Part shown: piece after piece, positions 38,690 to 43,492 of the stretch
How positions within the stretch are numbered: position 1 is the stretch's first letter
How the letters are laid out: every line of letters starts with the position of its first letter
NCBI RefSeq assembly: GCF_020037015.1
Contig: NZ_JAIQDE010000042.1
Span: forward strand, 1-63,728
Source: Corallococcus sp. AS-1-6
GTDB taxonomy: Bacteria > Myxococcota > Myxococcia > Myxococcales > Myxococcaceae
Direction: 5' to 3'
DNA: 63,728 nt
Notes under the pieces: model-generated
Seen by the model: only the letters and a program-made list of their open reading frames with translations
Database searches by the model: none
Told to the model about the DNA's origin: nothing
Position numbers and translations under genes: made by a program

Positions 38690-41600
38690 ATGAGGTGGGA
38701 TGAGATGGGCGAGTCGCCCGGATGGGACAGGTCGGTGTCGCGGGACGCGAGCGTGGACGGTGGGACGGCTCGCGGTGGGCGGGGCTCCGTCCTCGCGGTG
38801 GTGGCGGAGAAGCCCGCCGTGGCGCGCGACATCGCCCGGGTGCTCGGCGCCACCGAGCGCGGCGAGGGCTTCCTGCGCGGCAACGGCTACGTCGTCACGT
38901 GGGCCATTGGCCACCTGGTGGGCCTGGCCCAGCCGCATGAGATGCGCCCCGAGTGGAAGAAGTGGCACCGCTCCCAGTTGCCCATGCTGCCGGGGGACTG
39001 GCCGCTGGTGGTGTCTGACTCCACGAAAGCCCAGTTCGAGGTCGTCCGCCGCGTGATGAACGCGCCGGAGGTGTCCGCCGTGGTGTGCGCCACGGACGCC
39101 GGGCGCGAGGGCGAGCTCATCTTCCGCTACATCTACGACGCCGCCGGGTGCCGCAAGCCGGTGCGGCGGCTGTGGGTGTCGTCGCTCACCGAGCGCGCCA
39201 TCCGCGACGGCTTCCAGCACCTCAAGGACGGCAAGGCCTACGCGCCGCTGGCCGCCGCCGCCATGGGGCGCAGCCGCGCGGACTGGCTCGTGGGCATGAA
39301 CCTGTCGCGCCTCTACACGCTGGCGAGCGGCACCTACGGCAACATGCTGTCCGTGGGGCGCGTGCAGACGCCCACGCTGGCCATGGTGGTGGAGCGCGAG
39401 CTGGCCATCCGCGACTTCGTGCCCCGGGACTACCTGGAGGTCGTGGCCACCTTCTCCCCTCGCGGCAAGGGCGCGCCCGTGGGGGCCCGCTACCAGGGCA
39501 CGTGGTTCCGCTCGGGGCCGGACGGCAAGCCGGTGGTTCCGCCGGGCTACGAGTCCGTGCGCGAGGCGCGCCGGCTGGACGCGGACGGCGTGGAGGCGGG
39601 CCGGGTCATCGACCGCGTGCGCGGCGGCAACGCGGTGGTGGAGTCGCTGGACGCGGAGACCAAGCGGATGCCGCCGCCGCTGCTCTACGACCTCACGGAG
39701 CTCCAGCGCCACGCGAACCGGCTCTACGGCTTCAGCGCGCAGCGCACGCTGGAGGTCGCGCAGGCGCTCTATGAGAAGCACAAGCTCTTGAGCTACCCGC
39801 GCACCGCGAGCCGGCACCTGTCGGAGACGGTGGCGGACACGCTGCCGGAGGTGGTGCGCGCCATCGCCGCGCCCTACCAGGAGGACCTGGCGCCGGGCAC
39901 GGGCGAGCGCCCGCTGGGCAAGCGCTACGTGGATGACTCGAAGGTGACGGACCACCACGCCATCATCCCCACGCCCATGCCGGCGTCCGGCGTGCGGCTG
40001 TCTCCGGACGAGCAGCGCCTCTATGACCTGGTGTGCCGGCGGCTGCTCCAGGCGTGGCACGAGGACCACGTCTGGAAGGTGACCACGGTCATCACCGCGG
40101 TGACGTCGAAGGGGGACGCGGGGCCCGTGGTGGACCGCTTCCACAGCGCGGGCACGCAGGTGGAGAAGGTGGGCTGGAAGGTCCTGGACGTGGGGGGCGG
40201 GCAGAAGGCGCCGCGCCTCAAGCCGGAGGGTAGGAAGGGCGCGGACAAGGACAAGGAAGAGGAGCCGGACGACGAGCCGCAGGACCTGCCCGCGGGGCTC
40301 GCGCGTGGACAGGCGCAGACGGTGGAGGACGTGGAGGCGGTGAAGAAGCGCACGCGTCCGCCGCCGCGCTTCACGGAGGCCACGCTCCTGACGGCGATGG
40401 AGTCCGCGGGGCGCACGCTGGATGAGAAGGAGCTGGTGGACGCGATGCGCGACACGGGGCTGGGCACGCCCGCCACGCGCGCCGCGACCATCGAGCTGCT
40501 GCTCGAGCGCGAGTACCTGACCCGCGAGGGCAAGCGCCTGGTGGCCACGGACAAGGGCATCCACCTCATCCAGGTGGTGCACCCGGACGTGAAGTCCCCC
40601 GTGATGACGGGGCAGTGGGAGGCGTGGCTCCAGCGCATCGAGCGCGGGCAGGGCGCGCTGGATGCGTTCATGAGCGGCATCGAGGCGTATGTGCGGGAGG
40701 TCGTGGGGCAGGCGCCCACGTCGCTGCCGCCCACGCCGGTGGCCGGCGCCGCGCCGCGGAACGAAGCCGCGGCTGCGAGCGCACGGTTCGAAGCCGCGAG
40801 GCCGCATCCCGCGAAGGCACCCACCGAGGAGCTGTTCCGGACCCGCGAGGCCACGACCGCCACCGTCCAGGCCGCGGCCCGAGCCAACACCGCGCGCAAT
40901 GAGGTCGGTGCCTCCGCGAGCATGACGGGAGAAGGCCCCCGCGCGTTCGGCCACGGCGCGGCAGGCGACGCACGTCACACGGGGGCATCCGGCCACGGTG
41001 GCTCCGACGTCCCCGGTGCCTGGCGTTTCGCGGTGGGCGCCCCGGCCCACGGCCTCCACGACGGCTCCGCGGGCGCCGCCGCACCGGCCGCGTCGCCGCG
41101 CGTGCAGGACCGCCCTCCCAACATCCCCTCCGCGGAGGTGCGCACCGCCTTCGTGCAGGCCTCCTCGGAGGGCTTCGGCCGGGCCAAACGCCAGCCTCAA
41201 ACCGTGAACATGGGCGGCACCCGGCCGGAGCGCGTGCACCGCGCGCCCACGCCTCCGGACAAGCTTCGCGGTCTCCTCAAGGAGGCCTTCGGCTTCAACG
41301 ACTTCCGCCCGTACCAGGAGGAGGTCTGCCGCGCGGCCACGTCCGGCGAGGACCTGCTGCTGGTGATGCCCACGGGCGCGGGCAAGTCCCTCTGCTACCA
41401 GCTCCCGGGCCTGGCCCGCGCGGGCACCACCGTCGTCGTCAGCCCGCTCATCGCGCTGATGGAGGACCAGGTGCTGCGGCTCCAGTCGCTGGGCTTCGCC
41501 GCGGACCGCATCCACTCCGGCCGCGACCGGGCCACCTCCCGGCAGGTCTGCGCCGAGTACCTTGAAGGGCGCCTGGACTTCCTCTTCATCGCCCCGGAGC

Positions 41601-43492: not shown

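Follow-up and report, generated by a model that had tools for sequence, protein, structure and literature searches.

The partnership of RecQ helicases with topoisomerase III (Topo III) is an old theme. In the RecQ-Topo III pair and in the RTR/BTR complex (Sgs1-Top3-Rmi1; BLM-TOP3A-RMI1/2), the members of the two enzyme families are separate proteins. The available part of a 2020 review states that Topo III is stimulated by RecQ in vitro and that the complex of the eukaryotic homologues resolves double Holliday junctions (PMC7140829), and the accessible text of another paper describes the E. coli interaction as functional, not physical, and compares the pair with reverse gyrase (PMC3905885). 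Here, we describe a gene that encodes the same two enzyme families as one polypeptide, the topB-recQ fusion of Corallococcus sp. AS-1-6, which lies in a 63,728-nucleotide stretch of DNA (contig NZ_JAIQDE010000042.1; the window).

The open reading frame (38690-43492, forward strand) starts with ATG and runs for 1600 amino acids (aa) without an internal stop; it encodes, in this order, a topoisomerase III, a linker, a RecQ motor, a zinc site and an HRDC domain (Table 1). Pfam matches are Toprim (37-165), Topoisom_bac (185-661), DEAD (873-1035) and Helicase_C (1079-1183), followed in the C-terminal part by RecQ_Zn_bind (1277-1322) and HRDC (1531-1596). An earlier interpretation of the letters alone (the sequence-only reading) had proposed a TopB-type topoisomerase IA and a RecQ helicase in one frame, and both the Pfam and the NCBIfam models bear this out. 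In particular, the fusion scores 664.7 bits with NF005829 (DNA topoisomerase 3; cut-off 597), 573.5 bits with TIGR01056 (topB; cut-off 515.75) and 376.8 bits with TIGR00614 (recQ_fam; cut-off 219.8); with the narrower RecQ orthologue model TIGR01389 it reaches 461.9 bits, below the equivalog cut-off of 640.2. The best-scoring solved relatives of the first half, by sequence, belong to the DNA topoisomerase 3 group (11fc, 1d6m and others), residues 37-676 aligning to PDB 1d6m (DNA topoisomerase III, E 2e-94), and the best-scoring solved relative of the second half is PDB 1oyw (RecQ catalytic core), to which residues 861-1194 align with E 3e-84. We take both of these structures to be of the E. 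coli proteins.

Conservation of the catalytic residues was assessed in 42 fusions. The rule for inclusion, strong matches to both TopB and the motor together with all or part of the zinc region, leaves out three loci with a degenerate or truncated helicase. The window protein carries E40, K41, D136, E140, Y369 and R371. Y369 and R371 are kept in all 42 fusions, D136 and E140 in 41 (one gap), and E40 and K41 in 40, the remaining two being gapped (L023) or unreadable (L008, whose first ~40 residues at a contig end are unalignable). The TOPRIM motif is D136-A-G138-R-E140. Where it has Gly138, the solved Topo III has Asp, and Gly is found at this place in 41 of the 41 fusion rows with a letter there (the forty-second row has a gap). 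The segment opposite E. coli residues ~238-262, presumably the decatenation loop, is longer in the window protein and shorter in some fusions, for example L083. In the fused RecQ motor, the superfamily 2 (SF2) helicase motifs are complete, and the Walker A, DEAH, motif III, motif V and motif VI positions are kept in the 42 fusions, save rows unreadable at contig ends; the variants seen are Q999 to H in 6 and I1152 to V in 8. The zinc cysteines are kept in 41 of 42 fusions (the last row is gapped). The same alignment agrees with every position that had been assigned from the letters alone, namely D136, Y369, K899, the DEAH box at 992-995 and Cys 1297, 1316, 1319 and 1322.

Selection was estimated as the ratio of nonsynonymous to synonymous substitution rates (dN/dS) over six regions, in 11 comparisons of the window gene with relatives, six of which are close Corallococcus loci. 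The TopB region has a dN/dS of 0.14-0.41 and the motor one of 0.01-0.24, and the motor has the lowest dN of the six regions in 11 of 11 comparisons. The linker between the enzymes, ~165 aa long in the window protein, has no Pfam match, and disorder-type residues make up 80% of it, against 67% of TopB. Its dN/dS is 0.30-0.54 against the six close Corallococcus loci and 0.30-0.74 in 9 of the 11 comparisons, the other two being uncomputable through synonymous saturation, which is consistent with a translated, weakly constrained segment. Across the 42 fusions, the linker length ranges from 24 to 262 aa.

The RecQ make-up that had been proposed stands for the zinc cysteines and HRDC; an RQC domain had also been named, and the Pfam RQC profile has no match in the fusion at E<=5. 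The stretch from motor to zinc site is ~65 aa longer than in 1oyw, and an AlphaFold model of residues 1193-1430 predicts a winged helix between the motor and the zinc site and another at the RQC position. A Foldseek search with this model gave no PDB match at E<=0.001, and the 50 rows listed are mostly transcription regulators, with no RecQ among them. A model of the RecQ half has a mean predicted local distance difference test (pLDDT) score of 60 (shallow alignment), and its top Foldseek ranks are BLM and RecQ, with template modelling (TM) scores of about 0.25 to the query; little can be built on it. BLAST detected HRDC in 29 of the 32 closed frames that match TopB, the motor and the zinc region; the three exceptions are L072, L123 and the degenerate L078.

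The architecture recurs widely. The genome_contigs collection, scanned with the fusion protein and used also for phyla other than Myxococcota and Acidobacteriota, gave 28 loci. In 26 of them, one frame holds TopB and helicase sequence, each at least in part; the other two, L029 and L030, are fragments of the RecQ side cut by contig ends (the metagenome-assembled genome, MAG, of L029 is also that of L016). The fusion also stands in one frame in single-contig assemblies, for example G077, G087 and G088 (loci L051, L052 and L068). In a survey of 195 Myxococcota genomes, the TopB profile gave 93 matches of at least 398 bits in 92 genomes, and 79 of the 93 are in open frames 1200 aa or longer, the helicase being checked on DNA for the fetched loci only; these 30 loci comprise 27 with both halves in one frame, 2 stand-alone TopB and 1 contig end. 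Strong TopB matches are missing in other families, for example in 12 of 12 listed genomes of family f2. Among 396 Acidobacteriota genomes, 43 have a TopB match at E<=1e-140, and 20 of these loci were fetched: 9 are full TopB-motor-zinc fusions (8 with an HRDC match), 7 are stand-alone TopB, 2 are reduced forms, L132 is cut by a contig end inside the helicase and L126 is a TopB at a contig end. One of the 23 unfetched genomes is that of L027; none of the others has a frame longer than 817 aa. L027 itself is a fusion in a record titled Bryobacteraceae bacterium, a family of Acidobacteriota. Myxobacterial contamination as the source of this MAG locus is rejected because 9 full fusions occur in other genomes of the group and because of its place on the TopB tree, where it groups with the two reduced Acidobacteriota rows (99/94). 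A plasmid or phage origin is likewise rejected: no place in the plasmid matches listed or in the phage collection covers 80% of the query, and no relative of the fusion was found among viral contigs. Judged from these sequences, the fusion is a real inherited protein, present in two bacterial phyla.

The trees contain 28 fusion rows (16 Myxococcota, 10 Acidobacteriota and 2 reduced), and the program gave a long-branch warning in all three. On the TopB tree of 46 rows, the fusion rows form one clade (98/93), and the degenerate L078 attaches beside it by a very long branch (91/79, not starred). The smaller of the two helicase trees, which includes 10 stand-alone RecQs, groups the same 28 rows (100/100). 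With 16 more stand-alone RecQs, taken from the 20 further genomes described below, the group consists of the 28 fusion rows plus two stand-alone Acidobacteriota proteins, L152 and L155 (30 of 54 rows, 100/99), which most bootstrap trees place among the fusion rows; the fusion rows alone form one group in 12% of 200. With L152 and L155 inside the clade of this larger tree, the claim that the fusion never splits is not upheld. By an approximately unbiased (AU) test, a single clade of the fusion rows is not rejected (p 0.596), and the tree constrained to it is even slightly better. One fusion event thus fits both the TopB and the RecQ trees, and L152 and L155 either descend from a fused RecQ that was set free or belong to a stand-alone sister lineage. 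Myxococcota and Acidobacteriota rows are mixed on the trees, a pattern suggestive of transfer from one phylum to the other.

On balance, we lean towards the fusion being a cooperating, single-chain RecQ-Topo III 'toposome' with a flexible tether. The RecQ half would unwind or branch-migrate joined DNA (converging forks, precatenanes or double Holliday junctions) and expose single strands or a hemicatenane; the tethered Topo III half would then cut one strand via Tyr369, pass the other and reseal, and the two DNAs would part without nuclease cutting. Covalent joining would raise the local concentration and fix the enzyme ratio. These steps draw on the known chemistry of the RecQ and Topo III families. 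That both activities would meet on one substrate, and on which one, is the step beyond what is established here, namely the architecture, the kept catalytic residues, purifying selection acting on each half, a common ancestry and conservation in two phyla. In favour of the toposome are the scores of both halves above the family cut-offs, the residues kept in the 42 fusions, the low dN/dS of TopB and motor, the one clade formed by the fusion rows, the neighbouring recQ and topB genes of Listeria, and the reported stimulation of Topo III by RecQ in vitro and double Holliday junction resolution by the eukaryotic complex (PMC7140829). Of type IA topoisomerases, the window's genome has two, the fusion and an 864-aa protein that scores as TopA (TIGR01051 816.1 bits, cut-off 456.4); a search of the host for separate copies of either gene yields no second topB, which also speaks for the toposome, and three recQ genes, which are taken up below. 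So does a set of 20 further genomes picked because they carry the fusion or one of its derived forms: in 9, no RecQ match (E<=1e-60) other than the fusion frame was found, an absence that is uncertain because many of the genomes are drafts.

Several observations weigh against a cooperating toposome. The window's genome has four RecQs over the cut-off, the fusion and three stand-alone proteins whose motors are 44-47% identical to the fused motor. Moreover, the available portions of two papers state that E. coli RecQ and Topo III make no observed physical contact and that RecQ does not act with Topo III in vivo (PMC13244152, PMC7140829); in those portions, the 2026 paper has Topo III acting with RecG, not RecQ (PMC13244152), and the 2020 review discusses, under a heading of its own, that evidence for an E. 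coli toposome is lacking (PMC7140829). Three relatives, L078, L119 and L122, keep all topoisomerase residues checked and have a degenerate or truncated helicase. In L119 and L122, from the Acidobacteriota genomes G480 and G440, DEAH has become EEAE and lobe 2 is absent, and tblastn found no downstream helicase remainder at either locus. The same two genomes carry L152 and L155 away from the reduced fusion, with Walker A, DEAH and zinc motifs intact, so the motor there seems to work apart from Topo III. A reduced fused helicase together with a same-clade RecQ elsewhere in two Acidobacteriota genomes means that the link is not kept everywhere; most simply, the RecQ would have been duplicated, a working copy set free and the fused copy left to decay, a course seen once, in two close relatives.

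In a second, less likely explanation, the link is a loose tether only: it would supply equal amounts of the two enzymes and shared recruitment (to forks or single-stranded DNA-binding protein, SSB), and the enzymes would mostly work on separate substrates. The range of linker lengths suggests a loose tether and argues against tight coupling, neither linker length nor linker sequence being much conserved (dN/dS as above, where scorable), and an intact fusion-type RecQ exists as a separate gene in two genomes. Against this stand the persistence of full fusions in both phyla (the 79 long frames of Myxococcota and the 9 of Acidobacteriota) and the intact motor residues of the 42 fusions. Of the sequence-only reading, the covalent link between Topo III and RecQ is real and conserved; its 'fixed dissolvasome' goes further than linkers so variable suggest.

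It is unlikely that the RecQ half is mainly a DNA-binding or targeting domain for Topo III, replacing the C-terminal cysteine repeats and leaving the ATPase secondary. L078 could be read in this way, because its ATPase motifs are lost (Walker A Lys to Gln) yet its four zinc cysteines are kept; so could L119 and L122, with only lobe 1 beside intact Topo III residues, and the stand-alone TopB proteins L075 and L085, which have cysteine-pair repeats at their C-terminal ends. However, the kept motor residues and the low motor dN run counter to a secondary ATPase, and the degenerate forms amount to 3 loci in 2 lineages, all in genomes with a stand-alone RecQ; that of L078 (G015) also carries a stand-alone TopB (L077).

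A bolder proposal is a long shot: the fusion would be a mesophilic ATP-dependent type IA topoisomerase, with RecQ strokes coupled to Topo III strand passage, and its relatives would form a series that starts with the full motor, passes through duplication and release of RecQ as a gene of its own, and ends in a vestigial pseudo-helicase attached to Topo III, reminiscent of the helicase-like domain in reverse gyrase. Still more doubtful is a mesophilic analogue of reverse gyrase, with ATP hydrolysis mechanically coupled to directional strand passage. The same two enzyme classes do share one chain, but the order is opposite, the linker is long and variable, and the reverse-gyrase model gives the fusion 96.4 bits, far below its cut-off of 471.7. 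Further, according to the accessible part of a review, a RecQ and Topo III mix at mesophilic temperature gave no positive supercoiling, a result whose significance it calls uncertain, and a thermophilic pair at high temperature likewise gave none (PMC4200833). Finally, an artefact, whether an assembly join or a missed frameshift in the linker between adjacent topB and recQ genes, has a negligible chance and is excluded because independent genomes show the same frame (26 of 28 loci of other records, single-contig genomes and Acidobacteriota), homologues as adjacent separate genes being found only in a distant Listeria relative.

Table 1. Features of the topB-recQ fusion, its upstream region and related loci. 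Positions refer to the window, or to the record of the locus where a locus is named.
Feature	Position	Strand	Basis or remark
topB-recQ fusion gene	38690..43492, stop included	+	both halves in one frame in 26/28 genome_contigs loci
Upstream element TGTCAGCCTNNNGCGATAGG	38597..38616	+	noticed by eye in several relatives
G-quadruplex-like G tract just before ATG	38656..38682	+	motif upstream in 11/14 loci with flank
Topoisomerase III half, aa 37-690	38798..40759	+	TOPRIM 37-165, type IA core 185-661
Active Tyr369 codon	39794-39796	+	within topoisomerase III half
Inter-enzyme linker, aa ~691-845, low complexity, length-variable	40760..41224	+	no Pfam match; composition, dN/dS
RecQ helicase motor, aa 855-1200	41252..42289	+	Walker A K899, DEAH 992-995, motifs III, V, VI
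Predicted winged helix, aa ~1211-1265, between motor and zinc site	42320..42484	+	AlphaFold model, pLDDT ~90 there
RecQ zinc-binding segment, aa 1277-1322; Cys 1297, 1316, 1319, 1322	42518..42655	+	PF16124
Predicted winged helix, aa ~1337-1415, at RQC position	42698..42934	+	AlphaFold model; Pfam RQC profile without match
Second low-complexity linker, aa ~1421-1520	42950..43249	+	composition, dN/dS, model
HRDC domain, aa 1531-1596	43280..43477	+	PF00570, E 3.6e-18
L119 (G480), reduced fusion	2528-5221	+	TopB + degenerate first helicase lobe, Acidobacteriota
L122 (G440), reduced fusion	1928-4552	+	TopB + degenerate first helicase lobe, Acidobacteriota
L078 (G015, Myxococcota)	245-3619	-	TopB + full-length degenerate RecQ
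L155, stand-alone RecQ, 679 aa	1453-3492	+	fusion-type clade
L152, stand-alone RecQ, 679 aa	526-2565	-	fusion-type clade

Upstream of the gene, the contigs of 8 of the 28 loci (L005, L007, L009, L014, L015, L016, L021 and L028) break off 7-19 bases ahead of the ATG, as though assembly failed at the G tract. The whole window holds 12 G-quadruplex-like motifs on each strand. RecQ enzymes act on quadruplexes, and self-regulation through the upstream G tract is conceivable. The upstream element was tried as a regulon motif and dropped; it occurs once in its own genome at up to 2 mismatches (control 0). The upstream neighbour (37065-38435) encodes a pyridine-nucleotide disulphide oxidoreductase, for which L003 and L004 alone have a match, and the downstream neighbour (43686-45179) encodes 497 aa with no Pfam match at E<=1e-5 and has a homologue in 21 of the 28 genome_contigs loci, several loci not being long enough to include it. 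None of the immediate neighbours scanned is a repair gene, so the context gives no hint of function. Further downstream lie a matrixin/astacin-like metallopeptidase (45311-46312, forward strand) and an AAA+ ATPase with a ClpB D2-small domain (46903-48051, reverse strand).

Two observations concern other records. L020, a myxobacterial-type fusion, comes from a 9.0-Mb genome titled 'Comamonas sp. KCTC 72670', a name that looks wrong; this genome resembles that of M. xanthus in having three RecQ matches. Elsewhere, long open frames contain further RecQ matches (G567:C53, 1827 aa; G060:C16, 1161 aa; G157:C190, 1047 aa) and are possibly other RecQ fusions.

In the literature, the available part of an M. 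xanthus mitomycin C proteome lists RecQ MXAN_1950, for which a tie to the fusion could not be made (PMC12288472), and the words 'RecQ' and 'helicase' are absent from the main text, so far as available, of a survey of type IA topoisomerase C-terminal domains (PMC9369019). Titles and abstract starts yielded no description of a natural TopB-RecQ fusion, most subscription papers and domain databases lying beyond reach, and these sequences are probably present in protein databases under both domain names. There is a laboratory precedent for linking the two enzymes covalently: Bennett and Wang reportedly engineered Sgs1-Top3 fusions in yeast in 2001. The nearest natural arrangement among the loci is that of a Listeria monocytogenes NCTC7974 record (L138, 2486-6435), where recQ and topB lie side by side on the same strand, 23 bases apart; unlike the fusion, they are two genes with recQ first, and their products are 38% (TopB) and 44% (motor) identical to the window protein.

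Overall, RecQ-Topo III teamwork in bacterial cells is disputed, and a natural fusion in two phyla is strong comparative evidence of joint action somewhere. It also offers a one-gene system in which one active site can be killed at a time or the tether cut. Reverse gyrase likewise joins an SF2 helicase-type domain and a type IA topoisomerase in one chain, but it places the helicase first and couples the two tightly, whereas the fusion has the topoisomerase first, a true RecQ second and a long, variable linker between them; the Pfam order supports the opposite arrangement noticed from the letters alone. The helicase-dead relatives let one ask what a RecQ half does without ATP, which is close to the question behind the comparison with reverse gyrase in the accessible part of the review (PMC4200833).
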